Source: Lachnospiraceae bacterium
GTDB taxonomy: Bacteria; Bacillota; Clostridia; Lachnospirales; Lachnospiraceae
Assembly (NCBI GenBank): GCA_017621975.1
Contig: JAGARW010000043.1
Location: forward strand, 1-63,341
DNA length: 63,341 nt
Direction of reading: 5' to 3'
In this document: one piece after another, positions 24,961 to 41,232 of the stretch
Layout of the letters: each line of letters opens with the position of its first letter
Position numbering within the stretch: position 1 is the first letter of the stretch
Program-made: the position numbers and the translations under genes
Notes under the pieces: model-generated
Databases searched by the model: none
What the model saw: the letters and a program-made list of their open reading frames with translations, nothing else
Told to the model about the DNA's origin: nothing

Positions 24961-25014
24961 AGAACCTCCGGTTTTTTCTGTTACTTTAGTCTATGCAGAA
25001 TTCCCCGAATATTG

Positions 25015-25992
25015 TCATCCCAAACGACCTTTGATATATTCTTCGACCTCGCTTTTTTCCGGCATGACCTTCAGGGCGCCTCGTCTTGTCGTGATCAGAC
25101 TGGACGCGCCGTTTGCAAACGTCAGCATTTCAAGAAGATTTTCTTCCGTCAGACCGTCCAGACCGTGCTCCAGCACATAATTCAGAATGCAGGCGCAGAA
25201 CGTATCGCCCGCTCCCGTCGTTTCGATCGTATTCGGATTCAGGAATGGCTGAGCCGTTACCTTTTTGTCCCCATAATACGCGATGCTGCCTTCCTTGCCG
25301 AGCGTAGCAAGCAGAAGCCGGATATTGCCGTAGCGGGTCCTGATCCATTCCACCCCGTCCTCGATCGTCTCAGTGCCGGAAACAAACAGAATCTCGTCGT
25401 CCGAAATCTTGAGCACGTCGCACTGACCAAGCCCGTATAAGATCTGCTCCTTCGCGTCGTCGAGGCTCTTCCAGAGCGGCGGGCGCAGGTTCGGATCAAA
25501 CGAGATCAGGATGCCCGCCTCCTTTGCGGCTGCGAGTCCTTTTTTGGTCGCTTCTCTGACGCCTTCATGCGTCATGGACAGCGTCCCGAAATGAAACAGC
25601 TTCGAATCCCGGATCATCTCTTCCTTTACCTCGTCGGCGCGCAGCATCATATCCGCGCCCGGGTTACGGTAAAAAGCAAAATCGCGGTCGCCGTCCTGCG
25701 CCGTATGTACGAAAGCGAGCGTCGTATGCACCTCGTCGTCCATATACAGCCCCTTCGTATCGATCCCAAGCCCATCCAGCGTTTTTTTCAGCATCCCGCC
25801 GAACTGATCCCGTCCGACCTTTCCGAGAAACGCCGTCTTCTTGCCGAGCTTGTTCAGCATCGCAAGCACGTTGCACGGCGCGCCTCCCGGGTTTGCCTCG
25901 AACATCGGATTGCCCTGACTGCTGACCGTATTCTCTGTAAAATCGATCAGCAGCTCTCCCAAAGCAAGTACATCATACATTTTTTCTGCCAT
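25015..25992 (-). CDS. scrK: Fructokinase (PfkB family)
   Basis: 325 residues. Opens with VLALGELLIDFTEN, has NPGGAPCNVLAMLNKLGKK (PfkB signature 1 region) and ETTGAGDTFCACILNYVL (signature 2, with Glu in place of the usual first Asp). Normal length for bacterial fructokinase. It phosphorylates fructose to fructose 6-phosphate. AGGAGGAAGATAAAG precedes ATG 25992. It is the last gene of the module 1 transcript that includes a lyxose/mannose-type isomerase, so the sugar may be isomerised to a ketose and then phosphorylated here. Sugar specificity within PfkB is inferred. Confidence 0.82.
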   Translation of the reverse strand: MAEKMYDVLALGELLIDFTENTVSSQGNPMFEANPGGAPCNVLAMLNKLGKKTAFLGKVGRDQFGGMLKKTLDGLGIDTKGLYMDDEVHTTLAFVHTAQDGDRDFAFYRNPGADMMLRADEVKEEMIRDSKLFHFGTLSMTHEGVREATKKGLAAAKEAGILISFDPNLRPPLWKSLDDAKEQILYGLGQCDVLKISDDEILFVSGTETIEDGVEWIRTRYGNIRLLLATLGKEGSIAYYGDKKVTAQPFLNPNTIETTGAGDTFCACILNYVLEHGLDGLTEENLLEMLTFANGASSLITTRRGALKVMPEKSEVEEYIKGRLG

Positions 25993-26079
25993 CTTTATCT
26001 TCCTCCTATTTTTATCGGTACTCTTGATACCGCTGTTTCCTTATCTAATCCGCAAAAGCAGACTGCCGCCCTTTCTCTG

Positions 26080-27576
26080 CTACGGATCCTTCCCGTCTTG
26101 TCTGTCGCAATACAGATGCCGCCACGGCGTTGCTGACGAAAGCATGGAAAATTCTTCCTTTGATATTTCGATCAGCGTACCGGTCCCGTCGATACGCAGC
26201 AGCCTCTCCGCAAGCGTCATCGAATCCGCCAGATTGATCGCCAGAATCACAACGGCGATCTCTTTTTCCAGAAACGCTTCGATCAGCTTCCATATCTGGA
26301 TTCTGTGCGGAAGATCCGCTCCCTTAAAAGGCTGAATGCAGAATACGATCTTAGGTCTCTGCAGCAAAATTCTTGTATACACAAGCTGATACTTCTGCAT
26401 CTCTGTCAGATCCTCCATCTGCATCGAAAATACTTCTTCCCCAAGCGCCTGCCCGTATTCTCTCCGCACGCTTTCTTTGATTCTGCCCTCTCCCCATCTC
26501 TTCGGGATTCTCCGAAACAATCCGAAACAAAGATTATCCATGTAGCTCATGGACGGAAAGATCATGCTTCTCGTCGGCTGTTCCGAAATAATGGCGACCT
26601 CTCTGCTGTCCTTCAGCGTAATCTGCCTGCCTTCCAGAAAAACCGCCCCGTCATCGGGCGTAACGTCTCCCGTCAATATGCCCGTCAGCTTTTGGAATAC
26701 AACATAGTCCATACTTTGAATGACAATGCATTCTCCTTTATCAATCCTGATATTTAAGCGTTTCAGGGAACCGCTGCAAATATTGCGCAGCTCCATAGCG
26801 GCGTCCTTCTCCTGCCGTCTGTCCTGACGGCTGTTCATATGCCCGCGCACAAGCCGGTTATAATTTTCAGGATAATCCAATGCGTCCGGCGTCATTTCCG
26901 ATTCCTGAAAGACCTTCTGAATGCGCCCGTAGGAAAGCATTGCCGCCCTGTCGCAAATCTGGAGTATCTCTTCAAAATGCAGGCTGATGTAAAGGAAGGA
27001 AATGCCCTGCGCCGCGTACTTTCTGATAATTTCATAGAGCTTGCGCAGCTCCGGCTCGCTGACCAGCGTACTGATCTCGTTCAAAACGATCAACCGGTGT
27101 CCCATCACGACGGCGCGCAATATCTCCACGACGACACGTTCAAACGAAGAAAGCTTTTCCACATAGGAATCCGCAGAAATACCGATGCCGATATCGCGCA
27201 GAAACGGCTCAAGCTGCCTGCGCAGAAGCCCCGTTCTTATGATCTCCTGATGGAATCCCTGACGGATTACAAAAATATTGTCCGCCACCGTCATCCGTTC
27301 CACAAGACAGCTCTGATTCTGAATAATGCTGATCCGGTTGTGTCCCCGTTTCGCTTCCTTCCATGAATTGATCCTCTCGCCGCCGTAATAGACAAAGCCG
27401 TCTTCGAGCGGCAGATTCCATTGCAAAAGCCTCAGAAACGCTGCAAGACCATGTCCGTTGACAGGAATAACGCCCATAACTTCCCCGCGGTAGATCTGTA
27501 GATTAAAATCTTCAAGCTGCGTCATTCCCTTTTCCACATAGGTAACCCGCTCCATGCGGAATATTTCCTGTCTCAT
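26080..27576 (-). CDS. RbsA-like twin ABC protein with lost ATP-binding motifs
   Basis: 498 residues, the length and two-domain layout of RbsA/MglA. Both nucleotide sites are degenerate: Walker A at residues 35 to 47 reads GVIPVNGHGLAAF with no Lys-Ser/Thr; the signature reads LSSFE (142 to 146) instead of LSGGQ; Walker B is RLIVLNE (Asn for Asp). In the second half CIVIQSMDYVVFQKL replaces the P-loop, and PKIVFCIQPFKG the Walker B. It should not hydrolyse ATP. It starts by ATGA overlap with the histidine kinase gene and so probably works with the two-component system, perhaps as a regulatory stand-in that contacts the permease. A true RbsA is encoded at 34001. Confidence 0.8.
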   Translation of the reverse strand: MRQEIFRMERVTYVEKGMTQLEDFNLQIYRGEVMGVIPVNGHGLAAFLRLLQWNLPLEDGFVYYGGERINSWKEAKRGHNRISIIQNQSCLVERMTVADNIFVIRQGFHQEIIRTGLLRRQLEPFLRDIGIGISADSYVEKLSSFERVVVEILRAVVMGHRLIVLNEISTLVSEPELRKLYEIIRKYAAQGISFLYISLHFEEILQICDRAAMLSYGRIQKVFQESEMTPDALDYPENYNRLVRGHMNSRQDRRQEKDAAMELRNICSGSLKRLNIRIDKGECIVIQSMDYVVFQKLTGILTGDVTPDDGAVFLEGRQITLKDSREVAIISEQPTRSMIFPSMSYMDNLCFGLFRRIPKRWGEGRIKESVRREYGQALGEEVFSMQMEDLTEMQKYQLVYTRILLQRPKIVFCIQPFKGADLPHRIQIWKLIEAFLEKEIAVVILAINLADSMTLAERLLRIDGTGTLIEISKEEFSMLSSATPWRHLYCDRQDGKDP

Positions 27577-28619
27577 GATAGCATCCCTTTATTTTCCGGC
27601 TCATTCGGGGTAAACGGAATCGTAATTTCCACGTCGGTTCCTTTATGAAGAATCGAATAAACATGCATTCCGTATTCCTCCCCAAAGATCAAGTGGATTC
27701 TGTTATTAACATTCGCAAGCGCAATGCCGCCCTTTTTTTCTTCCTCATGGTCTACGATATTATTCCCGTTGCGTCTTAGTCTTCCGTTCAGCTTTGCAAG
27801 CGTCTCTTCGTCCATACCGACCCCGTCGTCCGAAATACGGATAATGAGCCTGCTGCCTGTCGCCTCGAACGAAATACGCAGGTTGCTCGTTCCGATCTTC
27901 TGCTCTGTTCCGTGAATGATACTGTTTTCCAAGATCGGCTGCAACGTCAGCTTCGGAATTCTGCAGTTCATGATCTCCTCGCGGTCCTCCGGCGGGCATT
28001 CGATATGGAGCCTTAACCTGTCGCCGAAACGATACTGCTGAATGCTGAAATAAGTCGCGCAGTTGTCCAGCTCTTCTTCAACCGACACAAGATTTTCGAC
28101 CTTCGTGATCGTATAACGGAAAAACTTCGCAAGAGCCTCCGTCATATCCGCGATGCTGTCCAGTCCGGCGATCAGCGCTTCTCCGCGTATGCTTTCCAAC
28201 GTATTATAAAGGAAATGCGGATTGATCTGATTCTGCAGCGCCAGGTACTGCGCCTGTCTTTTATTTAAATCCATCATTTGCGGAGACTTGAATATCTGAT
28301 CCATCGTCTCGATCTGCTGCCTCGTCGAAGGAACCAGCAGCGGCAGGCTGAATATTTCCTCATCTAATATAATATAACCTTCCAGAAAGCGCTTCACGAA
28401 CCGTTCGCAGCGCCTGTACGGCGCAACGATCCAAAACCAGATAAGAGCCATGTATATGCCGGATGCCGCCAGATACGCAAGGGGCTTCCACAGATCTGCT
28501 TCGCCGTGCACAAACAGCGCAAACTTCCGCAGCGACTGAATCAGCAGAAACGCAAATACGACCGACGCAATGAACGCAACGCGGTTCGATATATAATGAA
28601 AAGGATTTGTTTTTTTCAA
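27573..28619 (-). CDS. YesM/LytS-type sensor histidine kinase
   Basis: 348 residues. Two N-terminal membrane spans (about 12 to 32 and 45 to 68) with almost no external loop, then LQNQINPHFLYNTLESIRGE holding the phospho-acceptor His, and an ATPase domain with LQPILENSIIHG (N box), ISDDGVGMDEETL (G1) and GGIALANVNNRIHL (G2). With hardly any sensing domain outside the cell, it must get its signal from a partner, such as the degenerate ABC protein, the permease or the binding protein in the same operon. Nine bases after the response-regulator gene; overlaps the degenerate ABC gene. Confidence 0.85.
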   Translation of the reverse strand: MKKTNPFHYISNRVAFIASVVFAFLLIQSLRKFALFVHGEADLWKPLAYLAASGIYMALIWFWIVAPYRRCERFVKRFLEGYIILDEEIFSLPLLVPSTRQQIETMDQIFKSPQMMDLNKRQAQYLALQNQINPHFLYNTLESIRGEALIAGLDSIADMTEALAKFFRYTITKVENLVSVEEELDNCATYFSIQQYRFGDRLRLHIECPPEDREEIMNCRIPKLTLQPILENSIIHGTEQKIGTSNLRISFEATGSRLIIRISDDGVGMDEETLAKLNGRLRRNGNNIVDHEEEKKGGIALANVNNRIHLIFGEEYGMHVYSILHKGTDVEITIPFTPNEPENKGMLS

Positions 28620-28628
28620 TGTCCGCTC

Positions 28629-30218
28629 CTACCCGTACAGCTTCCGGTACGTCGCGGGCTTTACGCCCGTCGCTTTCTCAAACGTATGTGTAAAATGCTT
28701 CAGATCGTTGTAGCCGACCTTACGGCAGATCTCCGCCGCAGGGATATTGCTCTCCCGCAGCAGCCGTTTGGCTTCTTCCATCCGCAGATTGATCAGATAT
28801 CTGGCAAAGCCTTCTCCTTCCGACTTTTTGAAAAGGACGCTGAAATAAGCGCTGCTCAGTCCGACAACGCTGCTGACCTCTTCCATTGTGATCTGCTCGC
28901 TGAAATGGTTCTGAATATACTGCTTTGCCTGACGGATCGGCCTAATGGACGTCTCCTCGCGCTTTTTTTCCAACTCTTCCAAATGGCTTCGCTGCAATGC
29001 GCGGAGCGCTCCAAACAGCTCTTCCATGCTGCCGCACCGCTCACACCGCTCTTCGAATCTCTGAATTTCCTGCTCGCGCCCGGCAAGCTCTAACTGACTC
29101 AGAAACAAGTGTCCGCACGAACGCACAAGCTCTGACAGCTCGTAGCCGTAAACCGTTTTTGCTCCCTCTATACTGCTTTTGATCTGATCGATGACCGCAT
29201 CGGCTTCCTCGACGCTGATGACCTCGATGGCATGTGTCATCAGCCGCAGATATTTCTCCAGCAGATTCTGCTCATGCAGCCTGCCCTCCGCAGGCGCCCC
29301 ATCCAGTACGCGTCCTGTCCCCCGAAGCAGCCTTTCCTGAATAATAACCGCCGCTTCCCGGATCGAAAGCGGCAGATCCTCCGGTTTCCCCACGGCGCTG
29401 CCGACCGACGCGGAAAAGGTAATCGGACCGTACAGATTTTTCTGTGCCTCCAACTGGTTCAGGCAGTCCTTCAGGCTTCTTTTGATCTCCTGTCTCTTTG
29501 ATTCTTTGTAATTCATCATACCGATGCAGGCAGTGTTTTTCCAGTAAAATATCATTTCACAGCAGCGCGGATGCAGGTTCCGCTCAAGCATGTTCCGCAC
29601 CTTGTCCATCACGATCGTCATCCCGGATTCGCTCATTTCCTCGGTTTTTCCGTCGATCTGTATACGGAACGCCTGAAACAGCCCACACTCGACGCGCAGA
29701 TAATATTCGCTGCGCATTGTCTCAAGAGAAAGCGGTATCTCCCTGCCTTCCGCAAGCTGCCCCATCAGTCCCTCCTGCAGACGTCTGATGTCGTTTTCAC
29801 TTTTCTGCAATAGCTGCTGCATATCCGTAGCCGATTCCTTTCGTTCGGTCACACGCCCTTTCAGCTTTTGCAGCGTCGCATGCAGTTCTGATTTATTGAT
29901 CGGCTTTAACAGATAATCCCCGACCCCGAATTTGATCGCCCTCTGGGCATATTCAAAATGCGCGTATCCGCTGATGATAATAATTTCCAGCGTTTCATTG
30001 CTCTTTTTCACCGCTTCGATCAATTCAAGACCGCTGCAGCCCGGCATTTGAATATCCGTAATCAGGATTTCCGGGCGCAGACTTTTCGCCATTTCTATAG
30101 CCTCCAGCCCGTTATGCGCAATGCCGGCAACTTCCATCCCCATCGAGTCCCAGTCGACAAGCGCCTGAATCAGCTTGCAGATACGTTCCTCATCGTCTGC
30201 AATCATCACCTTCAGCAT
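28629..30218 (-). CDS. AraC-type response regulator
   Basis: 529 residues. Receiver domain at 1 to 120 with ILITDIQMPG carrying the phospho-Asp, a long helical middle part, and a C-terminal AraC DNA-binding domain (SAYFSVLFKKSEGEGFARYL, then KVGYNDLKHFTHTFEKATGV). GGAGGGGAAGAA precedes ATG 30218. It pairs with the kinase encoded next and most likely controls the sugar operon it belongs to. Confidence 0.9.
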   Translation of the reverse strand: MLKVMIADDEERICKLIQALVDWDSMGMEVAGIAHNGLEAIEMAKSLRPEILITDIQMPGCSGLELIEAVKKSNETLEIIIISGYAHFEYAQRAIKFGVGDYLLKPINKSELHATLQKLKGRVTERKESATDMQQLLQKSENDIRRLQEGLMGQLAEGREIPLSLETMRSEYYLRVECGLFQAFRIQIDGKTEEMSESGMTIVMDKVRNMLERNLHPRCCEMIFYWKNTACIGMMNYKESKRQEIKRSLKDCLNQLEAQKNLYGPITFSASVGSAVGKPEDLPLSIREAAVIIQERLLRGTGRVLDGAPAEGRLHEQNLLEKYLRLMTHAIEVISVEEADAVIDQIKSSIEGAKTVYGYELSELVRSCGHLFLSQLELAGREQEIQRFEERCERCGSMEELFGALRALQRSHLEELEKKREETSIRPIRQAKQYIQNHFSEQITMEEVSSVVGLSSAYFSVLFKKSEGEGFARYLINLRMEEAKRLLRESNIPAAEICRKVGYNDLKHFTHTFEKATGVKPATYRKLYG

Positions 30219-30299
30219 TTCTTCCCCTCCATCCTGACCGTACCTCCATTATTCTTTATTTTATCAGAAGTTTCACCGTTTGAAAACCTTATCCGTCAT

Positions 30300-30986
30300 T
30301 TATCTTGCCGCCGGATATTCCGTGCAGAGCAGCCGGTAAGGCGGCTCGTCCTCTTCGATCGTCGGGAAGCGTCCCATTTTTTCATAGAAACGGTTATCCG
30401 TGTTGTCGTCGTTGCACTGGCTCACCTCGCCGATCAGTACCGGTCCGCTTCCTTCCTCAACCTCAAAATCATGATACATATACGGATAGATGCTGATGCT
30501 CTCTCCCGGCGTCAGCTTCACCTGCGTTCCTGCCGGAACAACGACTTCCCGTCCGTCCAGATGCACATGCACGTCCCCCGCCTTATCCAGATCTTCCTCC
30601 GGCGTGGAGTTGTAAACGCGGATGAGCAGATTGCCGCCGCCGCGGTTAATGATGTCCTCCATCTTACTCCAATGGAAATGCATCGGGGAATACTGCCCTT
30701 CTTTGATGTAAAGCAGCTTCTCCGCATAGCTTTTCGTATATTTGTCTTTCATCTTCAGATTGCCGTTGCGGATCGTAATCAGGGAAAATCCGACCTTGTC
30801 AAAATCACCGAGTCCGTAATCCGTAATGTCCCATCCAAGCATATTGTCCCTTACCTCGTCGTAATCGTGTCCTTTTTCCTGCCACTCCTGCGGTGTGAAA
30901 TGGCAAAACGGCGGCAGGGAAACCCTGTAATCCTGAATCATCGTTTCCATTTCCTTTAACGCTGCATTGATTTCACTTCGTTTCAT
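30300..30986 (-). CDS. D-lyxose ketol-isomerase family sugar isomerase (cupin)
   Basis: 228 residues from ATG 30986 (AAGGAGAGCTT before it). Cupin metal site: MHFHWSKMEDIINRGGG (His, His, Glu) and SIYPYMYHDFEVEEGSG (His). The family converts D-lyxose to D-xylulose and also acts on D-mannose to D-fructose. It is placed between the binding protein and the regulator of module 1; the fructokinase at the operon end would take a ketohexose product onward. Which sugar is used is not shown by the sequence. Confidence 0.8.
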   Translation of the reverse strand: MKRSEINAALKEMETMIQDYRVSLPPFCHFTPQEWQEKGHDYDEVRDNMLGWDITDYGLGDFDKVGFSLITIRNGNLKMKDKYTKSYAEKLLYIKEGQYSPMHFHWSKMEDIINRGGGNLLIRVYNSTPEEDLDKAGDVHVHLDGREVVVPAGTQVKLTPGESISIYPYMYHDFEVEEGSGPVLIGEVSQCNDDNTDNRFYEKMGRFPTIEEDEPPYRLLCTEYPAAR

Positions 30987-31038
30987 AAGCTCTCCTTCCG
31001 GCATATCGCCTTTCTATTTTTTGTTTTCTTCTATTACA

Positions 31039-31068
31039 AGAAAACCGCCGGTAGGGCCGACGGTTCTC
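31039..31068 (-). terminator. Hairpin between binding-protein and isomerase genes
   Basis: On the minus strand AGAACCGTCGG-CCCTA-CCGGCGGTTTTCT with a short T run. It probably lowers expression of the downstream isomerase and regulator genes relative to the binding protein. Confidence 0.6.
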
Positions 31069-31096
31069 TTATTTACCTTTTCTAATGAAAGAAAAA

Positions 31097-32917
31097 TTAT
31101 TTTGTAATAACGGATACGCCCGTATCTGTCACTGCGCCGCCGAGCGATTCGCCCTCAAGCGCCTTTACGCATGCTTCTACGCCCATAGAACCCATTACAT
31201 CGGGATTCTGCGCCATTGTGCAGAGCAGATAGCCGTCGTCGATCAAATTCAGGATCGCATCGGATTTATCAAAGCCGACGCCGATGATTTCCGTATTGCC
31301 GGATGCCTTGATCGCATTGCCCGCGCCTGTCGTAGAGCCTTCGTTGCATCCGAAGATACCGACTACGCCCTGTGTAATATAGTTTTCAGCGATGCTCTGG
31401 GATTTTGCCGCGTCGCCTTCGCCGTACTGTGTTTCCATGATTTCAAAGCCGCTGCCCTCAAATGCGCTGCGGAAGCCTTCTTCACGCATTACGCAGGAGT
31501 CTGTCGCCGCATTAACGTTGATGACGCCGATCTTACCGGAAGATACGCCTGCCGCTTCGAGCGCTGCGATCATCTGCTCGCCAGCCGTCTTGCCCGCCGC
31601 CTTATTATCTGTTGAGAATGTCGCTTCCGCTTCTACGTTTGCGGGAGAGTCTACATAAACGATCTTTACGCCCGCTGCGGATGCTTCCTGTAATGCGGAA
31701 GAAATCGCATCCGGCCCGTTTGCCGCTACCATAATTGCATTTGCTCCGCCTGCTACCGCATTGTTGACGCATTCGATCTGCTGTGCGTCGTCCTTTGTAT
31801 TCGGCGCCATGAAAGTAACTTCTACGCCAAGTTCCTGCGCTTTTGCCTGTGCGCCTTCATTCAGGGTCACCCAATGCTGATCGATAGAATCCATTGTAAT
31901 CAGAGAGATTTTCCATGCCTGGCTTGCCGTCACATCAGAGCCTGCCGCTGCCGGAGAAGCCCCGCCTGCTGCCGCCGCGTCGATTACGGAAACGCCCGTA
32001 TCCGTTACCGCGCCGCCGAGAGATTCGCCGCCGATTGCCGCCACGGCTGCCTTTACGCCTTCATAACCCATCACGTCAGGATTCTGCGCCATTGTGCAGA
32101 GCAGATACCCGTCTGTGATCAGATTCAGAATCGCGTCGGATTTATCAAAGCCAACGCCGATAATATCCGCTTTGCCGGATGCCTTGATCGCATTGCCTGC
32201 GCCTGTCGTAGAACCTTCGTTGCATCCGAAAATACCGACTACGCCCTGTGTAATATAGTTTTCAGCGATGCTCTGGGATTTTGCCGCGTCGCCTTCGCCG
32301 TACTGTGTTTCCAGAATATTGTATGCGGAACCTTCAAATGCGCTGCGGAAGCCTTCTTCACGCATTACGCAGGAATCTGTCGCCGCATTGACATTGATTA
32401 CGCCGATGTCGCCGGAAGATACGCCTGCCGCTTCGAGCGCTGCGATCATCTGTTCGCCCGCCGTCTTGCCCGCCGCCTTATTATCTGTTGAGAACGTTGC
32501 TTCCGCTTCTACGTTTGCGGGAGAGTCTACATAAACGATCTTCACGCCTGCCGAAGCCGCTTCCTTAAGTGCGGATGAAATCGCATCCGGTCCGTTTGCC
32601 GCTACCAGAATCGCCTGATAACCGCCTGCTACCGCGTTGTTGACACATTCAATCTGCTGCGCGTCGTCCTTTGTGTTCGGCGCCATAAAGGTAACTTCCA
32701 CGCCAAGCTCCTGCGCCGCTTTCTGCGCGCCTTCATTCAGGCTGATCCAGTGCTGGTCGATGGAATCCATCGTAATCAGGGCAATTTTTGCGCCTGCTCC
32801 CGCGCCGCTGCCTGCGTCTGCCGCCGTTTCCGTAGAAGCGTTCTTACTTCCACAGCCTGTCAGCGCCGCTGCGAGCATCGTAATGCAACAGAGCGCAGCT
32901 AACATTTTCTTCTTCAT
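31097..32917 (-). CDS. Sugar-binding lipoprotein with two tandem, near-identical ligand domains
   Basis: 606 residues, twice the usual length. Signal ending LAAALTGC gives a lipoprotein. Domain 1 begins KIALITMDSIDQHW (residue 44) and domain 2 KISLITMDSIDQHW (residue 336), an offset of 292 residues or 876 bases. Each is a full Peripla_BP_4 (RbsB-like) domain; they are almost identical over their length (for example GSTTGAGNAIKASG and DSPANVEAEATFSTDNKAAG in both). An Ala/Gly linker (VIDAAAAGGASPAAAGSDVT) joins them. DNA identity is also high, so the duplication is recent or kept even. Next to its permease and ATPase. Confidence 0.92.
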   Translation of the reverse strand: MKKKMLAALCCITMLAAALTGCGSKNASTETAADAGSGAGAGAKIALITMDSIDQHWISLNEGAQKAAQELGVEVTFMAPNTKDDAQQIECVNNAVAGGYQAILVAANGPDAISSALKEAASAGVKIVYVDSPANVEAEATFSTDNKAAGKTAGEQMIAALEAAGVSSGDIGVINVNAATDSCVMREEGFRSAFEGSAYNILETQYGEGDAAKSQSIAENYITQGVVGIFGCNEGSTTGAGNAIKASGKADIIGVGFDKSDAILNLITDGYLLCTMAQNPDVMGYEGVKAAVAAIGGESLGGAVTDTGVSVIDAAAAGGASPAAAGSDVTASQAWKISLITMDSIDQHWVTLNEGAQAKAQELGVEVTFMAPNTKDDAQQIECVNNAVAGGANAIMVAANGPDAISSALQEASAAGVKIVYVDSPANVEAEATFSTDNKAAGKTAGEQMIAALEAAGVSSGKIGVINVNAATDSCVMREEGFRSAFEGSGFEIMETQYGEGDAAKSQSIAENYITQGVVGIFGCNEGSTTGAGNAIKASGNTEIIGVGFDKSDAILNLIDDGYLLCTMAQNPDVMGSMGVEACVKALEGESLGGAVTDTGVSVITK

Positions 32918-32966
32918 ACTCTTTTCCTCCTTTTTATGAACATCCGCTTATGCGGTCTGTTTTCCG

Positions 32967-33986
32967 TTATTTTTTCTTTCTCTTTTTTGCAAATTCTCCG
33001 TTGCGGACAACCACGTCGAGAAGCACTGCCGCTACAACGATGATACCGATTACAAGCCGCTGGATTCCAACCTGCGCGCCGATCATGTTAAGTCCGTTTT
33101 CAAGCGTCTGCCATACGGCTGCGCCCGCCAGTGTACCGAGCAGGATTCCGGTTCCGCCAAGCGGGGAAACGCCGCCGATTACGCCTGCCGCTACACCGTA
33201 CATTTCGTACATATTTCCGGCTTCCATATTACCCATGCTCGCCTGTGCGCAGAGGATCAGACCTACCATACAGGAGCAGATCGAGCTTACCAGATATGCC
33301 TTTGTTGTCGTCGCTACCACATTGACGCCGGACAGCTTCGCCGCATCGATATTGGAACCGATCGCATAAATATGTCTGCCCGTCCTTGTCTTAGACAACA
33401 GGAAGAAGAAAATAACAAACATAATGATCGCGATCCAAAATGTGTTGTAAATGCCAAGCGTCGTACCATAGTAGAAGAAATTCTGGAACGCATCGCCCGC
33501 CTCCTTGCCGATTCCGGTAGCGATCGCATCCGTATTTCTATTGTTGTTTACAATGTAAGCGATACCTCTCGTTACAAACATCGTGCCAAGCGTCGCAATA
33601 AACGGAGGCAGCTTGAACTTACCTACGAGATAGCCGTTGATCACGCCTACGACAAGGCAGCTTATCAGCGCTACGAGAATCGCTATGACCGGACTAACTC
33701 CGTGCGTCATCAGGGTTGCCGCGATCATTGCGCTCATGCCGACCATAGAACCGATCGACAAGTCGATGTTTCCTGTAATCAGCACATAGCTCTGCGCAAT
33801 CCCGATCAGCAGATACTTCGACATGGAACGGAGCAGATTCAAAATATTCTGTCCTGAAAAAACTGCCGGATTGATGAGACCAAAAGCCGCATAAATCAAT
33901 ATCAGTCCGACAAAGGCCGTCAGCGCCGCTCCCATACCTCTGATTCCCAAAAGTCTCTTGAGCGGACTTTGTTTCTTACTGTTCAT
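32967..33986 (-). CDS. RbsC-like sugar ABC permease
   Basis: 339 residues with about ten membrane spans. Carries the CUT2 permease features YVLITGNIDLSIGSMVGMSA and YGVAAGVIGGVSPLGGTGIL. It forms the channel together with the ATPase at 34001 and receives sugar from the tandem binding protein. It lies 14 bases after the ATPase gene and 49 bases before the binding-protein gene, so ATPase, permease, binding protein is the order, which differs from the usual binding-protein-first order of modules 2 and 3. Confidence 0.88.
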   Translation of the reverse strand: MNSKKQSPLKRLLGIRGMGAALTAFVGLILIYAAFGLINPAVFSGQNILNLLRSMSKYLLIGIAQSYVLITGNIDLSIGSMVGMSAMIAATLMTHGVSPVIAILVALISCLVVGVINGYLVGKFKLPPFIATLGTMFVTRGIAYIVNNNRNTDAIATGIGKEAGDAFQNFFYYGTTLGIYNTFWIAIIMFVIFFFLLSKTRTGRHIYAIGSNIDAAKLSGVNVVATTTKAYLVSSICSCMVGLILCAQASMGNMEAGNMYEMYGVAAGVIGGVSPLGGTGILLGTLAGAAVWQTLENGLNMIGAQVGIQRLVIGIIVVAAVLLDVVVRNGEFAKKRKKK

Positions 33987-34000
33987 GTGATTTCCTCCCT

Positions 34001-35515
34001 CTATTTGCTGCTGCCGATCTTTTTATCTTCAAACGAAGTCGCCAGCTTCAATATTTCATTCTGTGTCGCCGACTCTGACATAAGCTCTCCGGTGATCCGT
34101 CCGTCGCACATAACGATGATCCTGTCGGCGACGCCCATGACCTCCGGCATTTCCGAAGATACAAACATAACGGCAATTCCCTGTTTTTTCAATTCGTTCA
34201 TTAAGTTATAAATTTCAACCTTTGCCCCGACGTCAATTCCTCTCGTCGGCTCGTCAAAAATAACGACTCTTGAATTTCTTGCCAGCCATTTCCCGACTAC
34301 GACCTTCTGTTGATTGCCGCCGGAAAGATTACCGGAATCGATTTCCACATTCGGCGTCTTGATCTTTAAATCTTTGACGGCTTTATCGCAAAGCTCCCGT
34401 TCCTTGCGGCTGTCCACTACGCCGAGCTTACTGCATATCAGATCCAGATTCGGAAGCGTCAGATTGTGACGGATGCTCAGTTTCGTACACAGGCCGTCTT
34501 TCTTACGGTCTTCCGGTGCAAGTACGACGCCGTTTTTGATCGCATCCATCGGGCAATGAATCGAGACTTCCGTTCCGTCCACATAAATTTCGCCGCTTTC
34601 TTTCGGATCGGCTCCGAAGATCGCCCTCGTCGTCTCGGTTCTGCCTGCGCCCATCAGTCCGGCGAAGCCGACGATCTCTCCCGCATAGACCGAGAAATTA
34701 ATATCGCGTACCATGCGTCCGGCGTTTAAATGTCTGACTTCAAATATTTTTTCGCCCTTCTCACACACGACCTTCGGAAATTTTTCTTTGATCTCGCGTC
34801 CGACCATATGGGCGATGATCTCATCCATTGTCGCGTCTTTGAAATTCATGCTCGTAATATATTGTCCGTCGCGCATGATCGTTACCCGGTCTACGATGTG
34901 CTGCAGCTCTTCCAGTCTGTGCGATATGTAAACAATGCCGCGTCCTTCCGACTTCAGCTTGTGGATGATACGGAACAGATCGTCGATCTCCTTCGCTGTC
35001 AGCGCCGAGGTCGGCTCGTCCATAATCAGTATTTTCGCATTGATTGAAAGCGCTTTTGCGATCTCGACCATCTGCTGCTTGGATACCGGAAGTTCTCCGA
35101 CCGTCTGGCGCGGATCGATATCGATTTTCAGATCCTCCAGAATCGCTCTTGCTTCTTCTTCCATCTGCGCATTGTTCAGTGCAAACCGTCCGCGCTTCTC
35201 ACGTCCGAGAAACATGTTCTCAGCAACCGACAAATGCCTGCACATATTCAGTTCCTGATGAATGATCGCTACGCCGATCTGCTGCGCCTGCTTCGGCGTC
35301 AGGTCGCCGTATTCTTTTCCGAAGATCTCAAGGCTGCCTTCATTTCTTGTATATACGCCGCTTAAAATTTTCATCAATGTTGATTTTCCGGCTCCGTTTT
35401 CGCCGAGAAGCGCCATAACCTCACCGGAACGCAGTTCGAAGTTTACATTGTCCAATGCTTTGACACCCGGGAAAGATTTACAGATGTTCTTCATGGAAAC
35501 AATTACTTCATTCAT
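34001..35515 (-). CDS. RbsA-like sugar ABC ATPase, intact
   Basis: 504 residues from ATG 35515 (GGGGTGATGGG before it); longer frame starts lack a ribosome site. Two ABC domains: GENGAGKST in the first, with DEPTSAL as Walker B; the second has GLMGAGRTE in place of a full P-loop, as is normal in this family, then LSGGNQQK and [13 protein letters not shown]. First gene of module 1. It contrasts with the degenerate homologue at 26080 in the same operon. Confidence 0.9.
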   Translation of the reverse strand: MNEVIVSMKNICKSFPGVKALDNVNFELRSGEVMALLGENGAGKSTLMKILSGVYTRNEGSLEIFGKEYGDLTPKQAQQIGVAIIHQELNMCRHLSVAENMFLGREKRGRFALNNAQMEEEARAILEDLKIDIDPRQTVGELPVSKQQMVEIAKALSINAKILIMDEPTSALTAKEIDDLFRIIHKLKSEGRGIVYISHRLEELQHIVDRVTIMRDGQYITSMNFKDATMDEIIAHMVGREIKEKFPKVVCEKGEKIFEVRHLNAGRMVRDINFSVYAGEIVGFAGLMGAGRTETTRAIFGADPKESGEIYVDGTEVSIHCPMDAIKNGVVLAPEDRKKDGLCTKLSIRHNLTLPNLDLICSKLGVVDSRKERELCDKAVKDLKIKTPNVEIDSGNLSGGNQQKVVVGKWLARNSRVVIFDEPTRGIDVGAKVEIYNLMNELKKQGIAVMFVSSEMPEVMGVADRIIVMCDGRITGELMSESATQNEILKLATSFEDKKIGSSK

Positions 35516-35674
35516 CCCATCACCCCTTCTTTTGCTGTTATTTCCTTTTCTATAATCAGTATAGCGGACGAAGGATTTTTCCAAAAGGGGGAGGAATTTT
35601 TGTTTTCAGGGGGATTTTTTAATATATTTGCCGCCGTCTTTTGTTTTTTCTTTTCTCCGCCAAAGAGACGACGT

Positions 35675-35724
35675 AAAAGAGCGGGAAATCTTATTCTTCA
35701 TAAAATTTTCCGCTCTTTATTAAC
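35675..35724. terminator. Terminator between modules 2 and 1
   Basis: AAAGAGCGGGAAA/TTTTCCGCTCTTT stem with a long loop, T runs on both sides. It ends the module 2 sensor operon; a small hairpin GACAGACGC/GCGTCTGTC lies just after the stop of the gene at 35801. The rest of the 285-base gap should hold the module 1 promoter, which I could not place with confidence. Confidence 0.65.
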
Positions 35725-35800
35725 GCATTATTTTTCAATCATATCCGAAAAATCCCCGGTCATACAACCCATCTTTCAGACAGACGCCGCCGCGTCTGTC

Positions 35801-37114
35801 CTACCTCCTCAGATACTGGTTGATCTGCCGCTGCAGAATCCGCATGGAATTTTCAATATTGTCGTCGTTTTCAATGATACGGTTGATCTCGCTGTCCGCC
35901 ATCGTGATAACCTCCGAATATTTCTGGAATTTCGGCGTGACTACGCCGTTTTCAATGACGTCGCTCACAAGCCTGTTGTCGATGAACTTCTCGTTCTTTT
36001 CCATATCCTCCTGCAGGATCGCCTCCGCCTCTTTTGACTGCGTTACCTCCTTTAATACGGAAACGCCCTGAGAATAGCGGAATAAGTCCATCTGGATTTC
36101 CTCGTCGTACGTCAGCAGCTTCAAAAACTCCCACGCCAGCCGCTCCTGATTCGTATTGCTGCTGATCCCCATTAGTAGCGTGTCGATCACCGACGTATTG
36201 CCTCCGGATTTTCCCGCCGGAAGCGTAATGCAGTCCCATTGGAATTTCGTATATTTTTTGATTTTATACGGATAAGTCTTATACGTCCTGTATTCCGTAA
36301 ACGGCAGCGGCATAAACGCCACGTTGCCGGCGTCGAAATCGTCCTTCGTTACCTTGCGCATCTGACTGAGGTCGGAAATCTGCTTGGCGAACCGCACCGC
36401 CTCCGTCACCTTATCGTCATTAAAATAACTCTCTCTGCCGTTTTCATCAAATAATTCCGCGCCGTTGGAATATGCGGCTTCCATCCAGCCGTAATTATAC
36501 ATGCCGAACTGGTCGAGCAGACCGTCGCCGTCCCGGTCTTTTGTGATCCGTTCCGAGATCTGGTACAGATCGTCCCACGTCCAGTCGTTGTCCGGCACGG
36601 ACAGCCCCTCTTTGTTCAAAAGCGATTTATTGACAAACATCAGCATTGGAACGGTCTCGTACGGAAGCGCATACTGTCTGCCGTCATACTGTCCCGACCG
36701 CAGCGTCGTCGCATAATATGCGTTTTTGTCAAACTCGGGATCAGCGCCCATCAACGGCTCAAGGTCTTTCATAATGCCGATCTCGGCAAACTGGTTGAAA
36801 TCCTCCCCAAGCACCATAAAGACGTCCGGCTCCTTTCCGCGCAGAAGCTGTCTGGAAAACCACTCGGAATAGTCTTCTTTGCGGATGCCGCTGTAATAAT
36901 GTACCTTCACGTTTTTATGGGTCGCCTCGAATTTTTCCACCGCTTTATCAATAATAACATAGCTGTTGGCATTGGCAACGTCCCAGTTGCTTCCGGCAAA
37001 AATGCCGACCTCAAGCACCGTCGTCTTTTTGCTCTGGTAGATGCACGCGCCGGCTAACAATGCCGCCGCGCAGACTGCCAAACCCCCTATGCTGATCTTT
37101 TTTCTCCTGTTCAT
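35801..37114 (-). CDS. Family 1 extracellular solute-binding protein
   Basis: 437 residues. N-terminal hydrophobic segment LAVCAAALLAGACIYQSKK could be a lipoprotein signal (Cys after LLAGA). The rest is a MalE-type (SBP_bac_1) domain: PDVFMVLGEDFNQFAEIGIM, YALPYETVPMLMFVNKSLL, DDLYQISERITKDRDGDGLL, AWEFLKLLTYDEEIQ. It overlaps the response regulator gene (ATGA), and no permease or ATPase of the MalFGK type is beside it, so it may serve sensing and not import. It is the last gene of the sensor operon of module 2. Confidence 0.78.
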   Translation of the reverse strand: MNRRKKISIGGLAVCAAALLAGACIYQSKKTTVLEVGIFAGSNWDVANANSYVIIDKAVEKFEATHKNVKVHYYSGIRKEDYSEWFSRQLLRGKEPDVFMVLGEDFNQFAEIGIMKDLEPLMGADPEFDKNAYYATTLRSGQYDGRQYALPYETVPMLMFVNKSLLNKEGLSVPDNDWTWDDLYQISERITKDRDGDGLLDQFGMYNYGWMEAAYSNGAELFDENGRESYFNDDKVTEAVRFAKQISDLSQMRKVTKDDFDAGNVAFMPLPFTEYRTYKTYPYKIKKYTKFQWDCITLPAGKSGGNTSVIDTLLMGISSNTNQERLAWEFLKLLTYDEEIQMDLFRYSQGVSVLKEVTQSKEAEAILQEDMEKNEKFIDNRLVSDVIENGVVTPKFQKYSEVITMADSEINRIIENDDNIENSMRILQRQINQYLRR

Positions 37115-37785
37115 ACGTTATCCGGCTTTCTTTTGCTGACCCCCGTCTGCACCGCCCAGATCGCAAGCTGGGTACGGTCCCGCAGACCGAGCTTGTTTAA
37201 GATCGTGCTCAGATAATTGCGCACGGTTCCTTCCGACAAATTTAAGTTTTTCGCTACCTCCTTGTTGGAAGCGCCGAATTCGATCTGCTCGATGATCTTC
37301 CATTCCGTCTTCGTCAGCTCCTTTTCATAGCCTTCTTCGATCTGAATGGAATAATCCGCTTTCGCCATCTGGGAAAACAGCTTGACAACCTTTGTCGCGA
37401 TATCGGGATTGATCATCGCGCTCCCGCTGTGTACCTTATGGATCGCGTCGATCAGCTCGTCCATCGAAACGCCTTTTAACAGATAACCGCTCGCGCCGAA
37501 TTTCAGGGCGTTGTATACAAACTCATCGTCGTCAAACGTCGTCAGAATGATGATCTTGATCTGCGGATAGTTTTCTTTAATGATCTTTGTACACTGCACG
37601 CCGTCCATCTTCGGCATACGGATGTCCATCAAAATCACATCCGGCGCTTCCTTACGGATGCTCTGAATAACCTCCTGCCCGTTTGACACCGTTCCGGTTA
37701 CATGAAGGTCTTCCTTTGTATTCAATACGATCTGAAGGCTCTGTCTGATCAGCTCCTGATCGTCTGCAATCAATACTTTAATCAT
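37111..37785 (-). CDS. NarL-type response regulator
   Basis: 224 residues. Receiver domain with DDQELIRQ and VILMDIRMPKMDG (phospho-Asp), then a LuxR/NarL helix-turn-helix (LTKTEWKIIEQIEFGASNKE, then VAKNLNLSEGTVRNYLSTIL). Overlaps the kinase gene by 8 bases and the binding-protein gene by 4. It probably regulates the adjacent transporter operon, whose leader has two GACAAATGTC-type sites (44135 and 44167). Confidence 0.9.
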   Translation of the reverse strand: MIKVLIADDQELIRQSLQIVLNTKEDLHVTGTVSNGQEVIQSIRKEAPDVILMDIRMPKMDGVQCTKIIKENYPQIKIIILTTFDDDEFVYNALKFGASGYLLKGVSMDELIDAIHKVHSGSAMINPDIATKVVKLFSQMAKADYSIQIEEGYEKELTKTEWKIIEQIEFGASNKEVAKNLNLSEGTVRNYLSTILNKLGLRDRTQLAIWAVQTGVSKRKPDNV

Positions 37786-39100
37786 ATTCCTCTCCCCACC
37801 TGATCGGGATTCTCGCGATCACGCTGAAACCGTTTTCGCTCCGAAACTCCACCGTTCCGTTCAGCATACCGATCCGTTCCATAATATGCTTTGTTCCAAA
37901 GCCGCTCTTGATCTCGGCGCAGCCGATGCCGTTATCCTTGATCGTCAGCAGCACCATATTCTCTTCTTTTTCCATCGTAATGCGGACAAGACTCGCCTTT
38001 CCGTGGCGCAGGGCGTTCGTGACGCTCTCCTGAATCACGCGGTAAATGGCGCTCTCTTCATCCTCGTCAAATTTAAGCTTCCTGATCTTACAGTCAAAAT
38101 AAATTTCCATATCCGTAACGGATTTCATATCTGTTATCATTTTCAGGATCGCCGTCTCCAGATTCAGACGTTCCAGAGAATCCGGCTTCAGTTCGTTCAC
38201 CGAACGGCGGATATCAAGCAGACCGTTCCTTGCCACCTCCGAGATACGCTCCAGATGAGCCTTTGCCTCCTTCGGAGATACCTCGACCGTCGCAATGCAG
38301 GCGTCGATGCCGACCGAAATACCGGTCAGCGTATGTCCGAGCGTATCGTGAATCTCCCGCGCAAGCCTGTTGCGCTCCTTTGTTTCGCCCATATGCTCCG
38401 TGATCTTCGCATATTCCGCAAGCTGGCCGTTCGCGTTCTGGAGATCCGCGTTCGTCCTGCGCAGTTCCTCGTAAAGCATATTGACTTCCTCGATCGTCCC
38501 GCGCTGCTGCTGGATCATCAGACTACAGTAAATAATAAACAAAATAATGTTCAGAGAACCAAGCAGATTGTACGCACCGATCAGATACTGCTGTACCGAC
38601 GCGTCGTAATAATTGAAATAATCGTTAATGGAATACAGATTGTAGCTGATCGAAAGGAGCTTCTGGTCCGTAAGGAGAAAACTGATCAGCGCCAGACAAA
38701 TCATCAGATACTTTCCCTTATTCCCTTTCACATAATAAATAACCTCCGTAAACACAAGGAAAAATATCCCGTTATAGTTAAAATTCATAACGCCGACGAT
38801 CGCCGCGCTGATCGCAAAATCAAGGATAAGCGTCACATAGATCTTAGACGGCTGATTGGCGTAAAGCCTTTCCCTTACGACAAAAGCGGCGATCAAAAGC
38901 GCGTACAGCAAAACGACAATATATACGTTCGTCATAGGATGCTTCGGAAGCGCATGGATCGTATCGAGAAATTCCCTCGCCTCATAATTCGAACAGATCC
39001 GCTCCGTCGTCCATGCGATCGAAACGACGACAAAAAATACCGCTATGAAATTGACGAACATGATAACAAGCCTGATGTCATGCAATTTCAATTTCTGCAT
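37778..39100 (-). CDS. Sensor histidine kinase, NarX/DesK type (HisKA_3)
   Basis: 440 residues. About six membrane spans in the first 200 residues, with a short external loop (NYEAREFLDTIHALPKHPMT) early on, then a coiled coil (LYEELRRTNADLQNANGQLA), the phospho-acceptor box RLAREIHDTLGHTLTGISVG and an ATPase domain with DNGIGCAEIKSGFGTKHIME. Preceded by GGAGTTGGTACA. A membrane-embedded sensor with little external mass fits a system that senses through a binding protein, here the one encoded just upstream at 39113. Confidence 0.88.
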   Translation of the reverse strand: MQKLKLHDIRLVIMFVNFIAVFFVVVSIAWTTERICSNYEAREFLDTIHALPKHPMTNVYIVVLLYALLIAAFVVRERLYANQPSKIYVTLILDFAISAAIVGVMNFNYNGIFFLVFTEVIYYVKGNKGKYLMICLALISFLLTDQKLLSISYNLYSINDYFNYYDASVQQYLIGAYNLLGSLNIILFIIYCSLMIQQQRGTIEEVNMLYEELRRTNADLQNANGQLAEYAKITEHMGETKERNRLAREIHDTLGHTLTGISVGIDACIATVEVSPKEAKAHLERISEVARNGLLDIRRSVNELKPDSLERLNLETAILKMITDMKSVTDMEIYFDCKIRKLKFDEDEESAIYRVIQESVTNALRHGKASLVRITMEKEENMVLLTIKDNGIGCAEIKSGFGTKHIMERIGMLNGTVEFRSENGFSVIARIPIRWGEEYD

Positions 39101-39112
39101 TGTACCAACTCC

Positions 39113-40099
39113 TTACTGCCACCCGGCGAGATCAAACTGGTCGATATTATCGCGCGTGATCATCGTGACCGGAACGATCACAAGCTTTTCCACTTCTTTT
39201 CCGTCCAGATAATCATACGCCATTTCAAGCGCCTGATTGGCGATACTGATCGGACGCTGCGCGCTGCTGCCCTCCATATAGCCTTCTTTGATCATGACCT
39301 TGCCGTCCGGCGAGCCGTCGATTCCATAGATCAGAATACCGTCCTGTTTCTGATTCATCTGCAGCGCCGCAAGCGCGCCGAGCGCAGTCGGGTCGTTTCC
39401 TCCCAGCACGACGTCAAACGAAATGCCGGACTGTATGATCTCTTCCGTTACGTCCATAGAAACCTCCAGTTCGCCCTTCCCGTGCTTTACATCGACGATA
39501 CTGTATTCCTTGTGTCCTTCGATCGTATCCATAAACCCCTGCACCCTGTCGTCGATCGATTTGGTTCCCGGGCTGTCGATCACGACGATCCTTGCAGAGT
39601 CCTTCTTTTTCATCATATCCTCCGCGCACTGCACGCCTGCGTCATAATTGTCCGAAAGAATGGAAAACGCCACGTATTCGTCGTCATATACGAGCGTATC
39701 GATCACAAATACCGGGACGCCCGCTTCCTTGCAGGCGATCAGAGCCGGGCGCACAGTTTCCCAATTCACCGGGTTTAAGAAGATCGCCGTAATATCTTCC
39801 TCCAGCATGTCCATGATCTGCTCGTTCTGCTTTTCCTGATCCTGCGCCGGATCGCGGTAAATCAGAATATCCCCGTTCGCTTCCACGATCTCCTCAATCT
39901 GGGCATTCATATCCTGAAAATAAGGATTGTTCATCGTCATATAAGTCGCGCCGAATTTACGGGGTTCTTTCGGCGAACTGTCCCCGCGCCCCTCCGCTTC
40001 CCTTCCGTTTCCGCAGCCATAAAAAAGAACGACTGTAAACAAAAAAAGAACAAAAACGCAGCTATATAAAATTTTATGTTTCCCGACTTTTTCCTGCAT
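39113..40099 (-). CDS. Sensor-type sugar-binding lipoprotein, paralogue of the transporter's binding protein
   Basis: About 328 residues from the ATG pair at 40099/40102, which follow GGAGGA. Lipobox VLFYGC. Peripla_BP_4 domain with MTMNNPYFQDMNAQIEEIVE, IFLNPVNWETVRPALIAC, LGGNDPTALGALAALQ, IYGIDGSPDGKVMIKEG. It matches the transporter binding protein at 42991 along its length (for example GGNDPTALGALAA and an end in GWQ in both). It starts the sensor operon, 12 bases before the kinase. It probably presents the same sugar to the kinase. Confidence 0.85.
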   Translation of the reverse strand: MQEKVGKHKILYSCVFVLFLFTVVLFYGCGNGREAEGRGDSSPKEPRKFGATYMTMNNPYFQDMNAQIEEIVEANGDILIYRDPAQDQEKQNEQIMDMLEEDITAIFLNPVNWETVRPALIACKEAGVPVFVIDTLVYDDEYVAFSILSDNYDAGVQCAEDMMKKKDSARIVVIDSPGTKSIDDRVQGFMDTIEGHKEYSIVDVKHGKGELEVSMDVTEEIIQSGISFDVVLGGNDPTALGALAALQMNQKQDGILIYGIDGSPDGKVMIKEGYMEGSSAQRPISIANQALEMAYDYLDGKEVEKLVIVPVTMITRDNIDQFDLAGWQ

Positions 40100-40137
40100 C
40101 ATTCCTCCACCGCGCCGCACGGTTTTCGTAGAAACAG

Positions 40138-40183
40138 CAAAAATGCATCTGCTTACATGAACCCATGCCGCATCTGCATTTTT
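40138..40183 (-). terminator. Terminator of the module 2 transporter operon
   Basis: On the minus strand AAAAATGCA...TGCATTTTTGC with an internal partly paired stem. It separates the transporter operon (44040 to 40225) from the sensor operon (40099 to 35801). Confidence 0.6.
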
Positions 40184-40224
40184 ACCTTTTCTTATAAAAA
40201 TATTATACCATAAAACTCCCCATC

Positions 40225-41232
40225 TTACAGTTTGGACTTTTTATTCCTTACATAATCCACATAAACAGCCAGAAGAATAACGCAGCCCTTTACAACATAC
40301 TGCCAGAAAGAGTTGACGTTCATCAGATTCAGACCGTTGTTGAGAACGCCGATGATCAGACCGCCGATAATCGTTCCGCCGATCTTACCGGAACCTCCCG
40401 CCATACTCGTACCGCCTACGACTACCGCCGCGATCGCATCCATTTCCGCGCCGTCGCCCGCCGTCGGCTGACCGGAATACATACGAGACGCCAGAACGAT
40501 ACCCGCAAGACCTGCCATAATGCCGGAATAAGTATGTACAAGGAATTTGACCTTCGCTACGCTGATACCGGAGAATTCCGCTGCCTGCGCATTGCCGCCG
40601 ACCGCGTACATATGGCGTCCGAGTTTTGTCTTATTCATAATGATTGCCGTTACGATCAGTACGATCACAAGGATTACAACCGGCGTCGGAACCGGACCGA
40701 TATAACCCGCGCCGACGAACTGCCATTCCTTTGTGACAACGCGCACCGGAGAACCGCCCGTATAAACATAAGCGAGACCCTTTGCAATATTCATTGTCGC
40801 CAATGTTACGATAAACGGCGGAATCGTTGTTTTTGCGATTACCCAGCCGTTGAACATGCCGACGATCAGACCGATCAGCACGCCGCAGATCAGCGCGACG
40901 CCGAGCGGCAGATTGTATCTGGATACGCAGCCCGCAGCCACGCAGCCGGAAAGGGCGATGATAGAACCGACCGAAAGGTCGATACCGCCCAGAATAATAA
41001 CCATCGTCATACCGCATGCCAGATACAGGTTCGTTGAAATCTGACGAAGTACGTTAAATACATTTTTCTGTGTCAGGAAAGATGTATTTGTCAGCGGATT
41101 AACCGCCAAAAAGACGCACAATACAAGAAGTGCCAGAATAATACCTAAATTTTCCTTGAAATATAGTTTTGCTGCTTTCGTATATCTCGAGCCCGCAGCG
41201 CTTTTCTTTTCTACTGCTTTTTCCTGAGCCAT
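40225..41232 (-). CDS. RbsC/MglC-like sugar ABC permease
   Basis: 335 residues from ATG 41232 (GGAGGAGATCATCT before it). About ten membrane spans, CUT2 features MVIILGGIDLSVGSIIALSG, PPFIVTLATMNIAKGLAYVY and DAIAAVVVGGTSMAGGSGKI. Forms the transport channel with the ATPase at 41257 and takes sugar from the binding protein at 42991. Last gene of this transporter operon. Confidence 0.9.
   Translation of the reverse strand: MAQEKAVEKKSAAGSRYTKAAKLYFKENLGIILALLVLCVFLAVNPLTNTSFLTQKNVFNVLRQISTNLYLACGMTMVIILGGIDLSVGSIIALSGCVAAGCVSRYNLPLGVALICGVLIGLIVGMFNGWVIAKTTIPPFIVTLATMNIAKGLAYVYTGGSPVRVVTKEWQFVGAGYIGPVPTPVVILVIVLIVTAIIMNKTKLGRHMYAVGGNAQAAEFSGISVAKVKFLVHTYSGIMAGLAGIVLASRMYSGQPTAGDGAEMDAIAAVVVGGTSMAGGSGKIGGTIIGGLIIGVLNNGLNLMNVNSFWQYVVKGCVILLAVYVDYVRNKKSKL

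Follow-up and report, generated by a model that had tools for sequence, protein, structure and literature searches.

Encoded in a sugar-importer operon of a Lachnospiraceae bacterium (contig JAGARW010000043.1 of assembly GCA_017621975.1, all 63,341 nucleotides of which are referred to here as the window) is a relative of the ATP-binding cassette (ABC) ATPase RbsA whose two ATP sites are both broken. This protein, pseudo-RbsA, is linked near-obligately to a short LytS-type histidine kinase with almost no external sensor domain, and it probably docks on the permease RbsC, relaying to the kinase the conformation that is set by the loaded binding protein. Signalling would begin with the docking of sugar-loaded binding protein on the RbsC permease dimer, the cytoplasmic face of which would be occupied by pseudo-RbsA in place of active RbsA. 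Pseudo-RbsA would follow the RbsC conformation without hydrolysing ATP and hand the change to the bound kinase, which would phosphorylate an AraC-type regulator and thereby turn on transporter and sugar genes. The evidence, read from sequence, comprises the genes themselves, the loss of the catalytic sites, selection on the protein, its linkage and in one case its fusion to the kinase, kinases free of membrane helices in modules whose sole evident membrane protein is the permease, loci without a whole intact ATPase nearby, and mirror-tree links to both sides; from it we infer the docking, which an initial annotation of the window had proposed together with reporting to the kinase and which is the best-supported reading.

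Pseudo-RbsA aligns end to end with RbsA/XylG-type ATPases (NF010069, residues 2–463, E 8e-42), and a profile of its family matches the intact RbsA of the same operon over 464 columns (hhalign, E 6e-42), bearing out the twin ABC layout first ascribed to the 498-residue protein. Its NF010069 score, 143 bits, is below the cut-off of 699, and Pfam recognizes a single ABC_tran stretch only. The N-half Walker A motif has Leu-Ala instead of Lys-Ser, and the N-half Walker B has Asn-Glu instead of Asp-Glu, the Glu being retained; in the C half the signature has Thr-Glu-Met instead of Ser-Gly-Gly and Walker B has Ile-Gln instead of Asp-Glu, and the switch His is replaced by Leu. The initial annotation had listed the Walker A Lys-Ser/Thr, the LSGGQ signature and the Walker B Asp as lost in both halves. 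Its list stands for Walker A of the N half, for the Walker B Asp of each half and for the C-half signature. The C-half Walker A Lys and the N-half LSGGQ are lacking from ordinary RbsAs too (the Lys is Arg in 74 of 76, and the N-half signature is likewise non-LSGGQ), so those two losses carry little information. As judged from the alignment, the informative losses are those of Walker A in the N half, of the Walker B Asp in each half, of LSGG and the catalytic Glu in the C half, and of the switch His.

Like the RbsA, MglA and XylG ATPases of CUT2 importers, pseudo-RbsAs have the twin-cassette sequence from end to end and usually lie near RbsC and binding-protein genes; unlike them, none of the 119 pseudo-RbsAs in the alignment of fetched loci has a complete ATP site, which is present in all 122 intact RbsAs. 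Loss of catalysis in the 119 is firmly predicted from their sequences. Loss of ATP binding is not firm for the family as a whole, because 21 of the 119 retain the N-half Walker A Lys-Ser/Thr pair and 14 of these the Walker B Asp as well. Homologues with intact motifs in the same context, which the initial annotation took to speak against its proposal, thus occur in part, as these 21 and as partly degenerate RbsAs near kinase–regulator pairs (L189, L190, L239, L241, L242 and L243; loci are given by L numbers), but a complete site is nonetheless found in no pseudo-RbsA. Among solved structures, intact RbsA had no match (phmmer, E ≤ 1e-60), and the pseudo-RbsA profile found 15 sequences at E ≤ 1e-20, mainly LptB and branched-chain amino-acid ATPases. 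A plasmid search yielded 647 records, and the identity of the ten that were listed is 23–26%, the level of ordinary sugar ATPases.

Conserved pairs of a kinase and a degenerate RbsA, which the initial annotation had suggested looking for, are found across 13 family groups among the matches listed, and pairing with the short kinase is near-obligate. We define short clade kinases by a score of at least 240 bits with the histidine-kinase profile and an open reading frame (ORF) of at most 420 residues, both limits having been set after the data were seen. A pseudo-RbsA is present on the fetched stretch for 127 of 130 such kinases and elsewhere in the genome for one more. It lies within 3 kb in 122 of 129, on the same strand in 121; L271, the 130th, also has one, and in L136, L159, L163 and L166 it is on the same stretch but more than 3 kb away. 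Searches with pseudo-RbsA itself contributed 29 of the 130 loci, and among 100 loci found through the kinase alone a pseudo-RbsA is within 3 kb in 93 and farther along the stretch in four. The three kinases with none on the stretch are L189 and L243, where a partly degenerate RbsA takes its place, and L230. Dropping the bit limit adds three short kinases that lack a pseudo-RbsA (L187, L188 and L227; 206–216 bits) and a further one, L190 (159 residues), that is cut by the stretch end. Kinases longer than 420 residues have a separate pseudo-RbsA in none of 33 cases, a count that leaves aside the partly degenerate RbsAs near L190, L239, L241 and L242; one of the 33 (L191) is a fusion. The L230 genome carries an orphan pseudo-RbsA on another contig (G996:C6:18114-19562; L263), situated between genes that resemble, as read from sequence, those for isoleucyl-tRNA synthetase and a peptidase.

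Neighbourhoods were read for 60 short-kinase loci and 15 more (13 with short and two with longer kinases), for 20 long-kinase control loci, one of them the fusion, for the L271 short kinase, and for 38 further loci among the matches listed from searches of 295 order, 341 class and 348 phylum genomes. All searches sampled genomes and scored the best few candidates in each. Within the family, pseudo-RbsA itself was found in 27 of 397 genomes (E ≤ 1e-42) and the kinase in 87 of 397 (E ≤ 1e-40). At E ≤ 1e-84, 20 of 341 genomes were hit at class level and four of 348 at phylum level, the window's own being counted in both; only a minority of genomes are thus carriers. The module of regulator, short kinase and pseudo-RbsA nevertheless recurs in those 13 family groups of the phylum: besides L031, from Parablautia sp., 126 carriers come from 87 genomes or records with 13 family codes, again among the matches listed. 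One genome has at least five modules, five candidates having been scored there.

Large N-terminal sensors are usual in LytS/YesM-type histidine kinases (PF06580). The window kinase is without one, having two predicted transmembrane helices (residues 9–27 and 47–65) joined by a loop of ~19 residues, and no external sensor domain; it has the QINPH motif, and its phospho-accepting His 135 is invariant in 28 aligned rows. Its ORF shares 4 nt with that of pseudo-RbsA, and immediately 5′ of its TTG start is AGGAG, in agreement with the first description of the gene as overlapping and its product as nearly sensor-less. Eight module kinases (L136, L139, L140, L159, L163, L181, L186 and L271) have no membrane helix, by which we mean no 19-residue stretch above 0.8 hydropathy before the phospho-His; their best stretches reach at most 0.76, and that of the window kinase 1.93. 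Another hydropathy cut-off misses helices (for example in L058, where the best stretch is 1.57) and was not used for naming membrane-free kinases. The phospho-His is at residue 52–79 in L136, L139, L140, L181, L186 and L271, against a median of 133, and kinase and regulator genes are only 30–63 nt apart in L136, L139 and L140. The L069 kinase is split into two ORFs.

Forming five-gene rows in L136, L159 and L163 are the genes for kinase, pseudo-RbsA, binding protein, RbsC and regulator. As the kinases there are membrane-free, RbsC is the sole evident membrane-spanning protein of these modules, so an outside signal would reach the kinase through RbsC. Cassette and kinase are fused in L191 (genome G210), where a single 616-residue ORF comprises the kinase (residues 25–370), a linker and the N half of pseudo-RbsA (residues 400–613, independent E-value 3e-30); genes for intact RbsA, RbsC and a binding protein lie near it. 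For a complex of kinase and transporter this fusion is indirect evidence. Two N halves brought together by a dimer of the kinase could imitate a twin cassette.

On the transporter side, 127 pseudo-RbsA loci were compared. In 100 of them the stretch also carries an intact RbsA. Nine have RbsC and a binding protein but, on the fetched stretch, no whole intact RbsA; four have RbsC only, ten are cut by a contig end, and four have no CUT2 permease within ~5 kb. Among the nine, all five genes stand in one same-strand row in L119, L147, L151, L159 and L163, and L136 has a like row with a half-size pseudo-RbsA. The binding-protein gene of L166 is in two ORFs, with other genes between kinase and pseudo-RbsA; the RbsA piece of L180 is cut by the stretch end; and in L171 an N-half pseudo-RbsA ORF adjoins an RbsA C-half ORF. 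In the last case (6798–7927) the C-half ORF, which has LSGG, follows directly, as though a merger of two genes had later been broken.

One clade (100) unites the permeases of L147, L151, L166, L136, L159 and L163, and two groupings, (L147,(L151,L166)) and (L159,L163), are common to the permease and pseudo-RbsA trees. The permease tree, built from 13 selected permeases and 46 of the 135 others, requires five label changes, so dedicated permeases arose more than once. Much of the cytoplasmic loop that presumably meets the ATPase is retained in the permeases of this clade. An extra RbsC, on top of an intact set, lies beside pseudo-RbsA in L129, L143, L145, L148 and L225. Adjoining the modules are TctA, TctB and TctC in L151, TctA, TctC and DctM in L166, hydrolase-like proteins in L136 and L159, and a CN_hydrolase-family gene in L147. 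Tentatively, binding protein, permease and dead ATPase may together be a transport-incompetent receptor complex for a sensor-less and sometimes membrane-free kinase, which in some genomes would be a self-standing five-gene module regulating a transporter of another class.

Pseudo-RbsA also occupies a middle position in a mirror tree of 91 loci with all five genes, in which partial correlations of distances are compared with one another. Its correlation with the kinase is 0.55 given RbsA, and given the kinase it correlates with RbsA at 0.59 and with RbsC at 0.55. Once pseudo-RbsA is given, the direct ties across the module are 0.13 for kinase and RbsA (bootstrap −0.02 to 0.25) and 0.08 for regulator and RbsA, with RbsA–RbsC at 0.71 and kinase–regulator at 0.51. 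Thinning to 79 loci changes little. By these values pseudo-RbsA behaves as a link between the signalling and the transport genes.

Several observations weigh against the docking of pseudo-RbsA on RbsC and its relay to the kinase. All mirror-tree values include shared species history and can be read only relatively; given pseudo-RbsA, kinase–RbsC (0.12; 0.00 to 0.24) and regulator–RbsC (0.14) are small but not clearly zero, and pseudo-RbsA–kinase given the regulator is only 0.29 (0.14 to 0.46), so that the tie to the kinase may not be a special one. Behind the Q loops, the segments that face the permease in importers keep 0.67–0.69 of the conservation of intact RbsAs (Walker A, 0.37–0.42), a moderate level that 12–14% of equal-length stretches match; the N terminus, the N-half helical region and the N-half signature region keep 0.70–0.78. 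A structure predicted from two rows (window and L031) had a predicted local distance difference test score of 36.8 and was left out of fold searches. The L230 kinase has no adjacent pseudo-RbsA, though an intact RbsABC is present. L116, L220, L130 and L131 have no CUT2 permease within ~5 kb of the kinase (L130 and L131 having a binding-protein gene despite this), and in L186, L226, L238 and L271 a permease is present and no binding protein was seen. Finally, pseudo-RbsA consists of the N half only in L136, L142, L146 and the L191 fusion, so the fit on RbsC does not need a twin cassette at every locus.

The four loci without a permease and the N-half-only forms would suit a pseudo-RbsA that acts on the kinase as a free adaptor in the cytoplasm, or as a sensor of a ligand such as a sugar phosphate or nucleotide, without contacting RbsC, the transporter being merely a regulated target. 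Linkage and fusion are both to the kinase, helix-free kinases could sense a cytoplasmic signal, and the 14 proteins that retain the N-half Walker A and Walker B Asp could be accommodated too. We regard this explanation as unlikely, given the intact RbsA in 100 of the 127 loci and RbsC in 13 more, the permeases that accompany pseudo-RbsA (one clade of which has no whole intact RbsA close by), and the covariation of pseudo-RbsA with RbsC and RbsA beyond the kinase's share.

Docking on RbsC would also be expected of an inhibitor that displaces active RbsA and so turns transport down under kinase control, a role close to the blocking of the active ATPase that the initial annotation had offered as an alternative. 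Homology would imply competition for RbsC, and those 100 loci would supply the competitor. A general blocking role is untenable because of the nine loci that have pseudo-RbsA, permease and binding protein and no whole intact RbsA on the stretch (none was looked for elsewhere in those genomes), and the L191 fusion ties the cassette to the kinase; an inhibitor is accordingly improbable.

Still less credit can be given to a pseudo-RbsA that binds ATP without hydrolysing it and reports energy charge to the kinase. The Walker A pair in 21 proteins, with the Walker B Asp in 14, would allow this, and a degenerate site with bound ATP is proposed for the exporter BmrCD in the part of the source consulted (PMC7828314). 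The pair is absent from the other 98 of the 119, and the window protein is without Walker A, the Walker B Asp and the switch His.

Compared with its nearest relative, L058 (68% identity), the window pseudo-RbsA has mismatch fractions of 0.24, 0.15 and 0.53 at codon positions 1, 2 and 3, a pattern that resembles those of the kinase and regulator. The corresponding identities are 66% for the kinase, 64% for the regulator, 88% for RbsA and 95% for RbsC, so pseudo-RbsA diverges about as fast as the signalling genes. By these sequence measures it is a retained protein under selection and no decaying copy. Decay of a functionless RbsA duplicate, to which the long branches, the broken ATP sites, the L116 protein cut to 151 residues and the split L171 copy might point, is rejected for the window protein by its conservation and has next to no probability for the family, given the third-position excess of changes and its retention next to this kinase in 13 family groups.

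In a tree of 55 of the 119 pseudo-RbsAs, six partly degenerate RbsAs and 43 of the 122 intact RbsAs, made by a quick method, a branch with support 99 sets the pseudo-RbsAs apart, and another, with support 98, the intact RbsAs. Nine pseudo-RbsAs are flagged as long branches and some joins as doubtful. A single origin of the pseudo-RbsAs is likely from this tree, not proven. The partly degenerate RbsAs (Table 1), some of which accompany long kinases and one of which (L189) has a complete N-half site by motif, fall between the two groups and may be intermediate stages.

Table 1. Genes of the window operon and partly degenerate RbsA genes near kinase–regulator pairs at other loci.
Locus	Feature	Position	Strand	Remarks
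Window	PfkB-family sugar (fructo)kinase	25015–25992	−	downstream of pseudo-RbsA gene
Window	Pseudo-RbsA, 498 residues	26080–27576	−	twin ABC cassette, both ATP sites broken
Window	Short histidine kinase, 348 residues	27573–28619	−	PF06580 His_kinase and HATPase_c; TTG start
Window	Response regulator	28629–30218	−	AraC-type helix-turn-helix; domain search
Window	D-lyxose/D-mannose isomerase-family enzyme	30300–31004	−	score below NCBIfam equivalog cut-off
Window	Tandem substrate-binding protein, 606 residues	31097–32917	−	two very similar Peripla_BP_4 domains in one chain
Window	RbsC-type permease	32967–33986	−	BPD_transp_2
Window	Intact RbsA	34001–35515	−	start at ATG of MNEV; ORF opens at 35584
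L189	Partly degenerate RbsA	7072–8523
L190	Partly degenerate RbsA	6661–8139
L239	Partly degenerate RbsA	2950–4443
L241	Partly degenerate RbsA	9684–11210
L242	Partly degenerate RbsA	3468–4964
L243	Partly degenerate RbsA	2800–4470

In transcriptional order on the minus strand, the window operon runs RbsA, RbsC, tandem binding protein, isomerase, regulator, kinase, pseudo-RbsA and PfkB kinase; the intact RbsA that the initial annotation placed in the operon is there, with intact sites. Its sugar may be of the mannose, lyxose or fructose type, a guess from the isomerase and the sugar kinase. Binding proteins of 598–635 residues, near the length of the tandem protein, occur in L058, L059, L067, L073, L076, L085, L221 and L233. 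Between the upstream gene and rbsA (35676–35718) is an inverted repeat of 19 nt (arms 89% complementary and 5 nt apart), which is perhaps a terminator; promoter and terminator scans over 25000–36200 gave a signal no better than the shuffled level. A second, unrelated set at 35801–42741 comprises a LuxR-type regulator, a HisKA_3 kinase and solute-binding proteins, and adjoins another CUT2 permease and ATPase.

A pseudo-RbsA that reads RbsC would explain how a set of LytS-type kinases without a sensor domain perceive sugar, and would make a pseudo-ATPase the bridge from an ABC importer to a two-component system. Some apparent sugar ABC ATPase genes would then probably encode regulators, and systems with and without a nearby active ATPase could separate the sensing of occupancy from that of flux. 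Searches of open-licence literature listed no paper in which a kinase is paired with a dead RbsA; subscription papers are mostly outside this body, which makes it weak evidence of novelty.

Kinases that read transporters are already known. In PstSCAB–PhoU–PhoR a cytoplasmic adaptor joins an ABC importer to a kinase, but PhoU is not related to the ABC ATPases, and PstB is an active one. In UhpC–UhpB a transporter homologue is the receptor for the kinase; UhpC is a major facilitator superfamily protein, whereas the receptor proposed here would be an ABC importer whose motor is dead. XylFII–LytS, which acts with YesN, has CUT2 kinship. In the portion of the source seen, the xylose-binding protein XylFII informs a LytS-type kinase through an external LytS domain (PMC6321045); the kinases here would likewise be LytS-type kinases informed by a sugar-binding protein, but they have a loop of ~19 residues or no membrane helix and thus no external docking domain. 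According to excerpts of PMC10314905 and PMC7828314, BceS is a two-transmembrane kinase without an external sensor domain, as is the window kinase, and is signalled by the ABC transporter BceAB in a complex; there, BceAB must be functional, its flux being sensed, and BceB has a large external loop. The window system differs in having a dead cassette, a CUT2 importer shell (BPD_transp_2 permease) and a PF06580 His_kinase domain. To our knowledge, none of BceAB–BceS, XylFII–LytS, PhoU–PhoR and UhpC–UhpB uses a dead ATPase as the link, which would be the new part, and the five-gene receptor, if confirmed, would go beyond a variant of these known systems.

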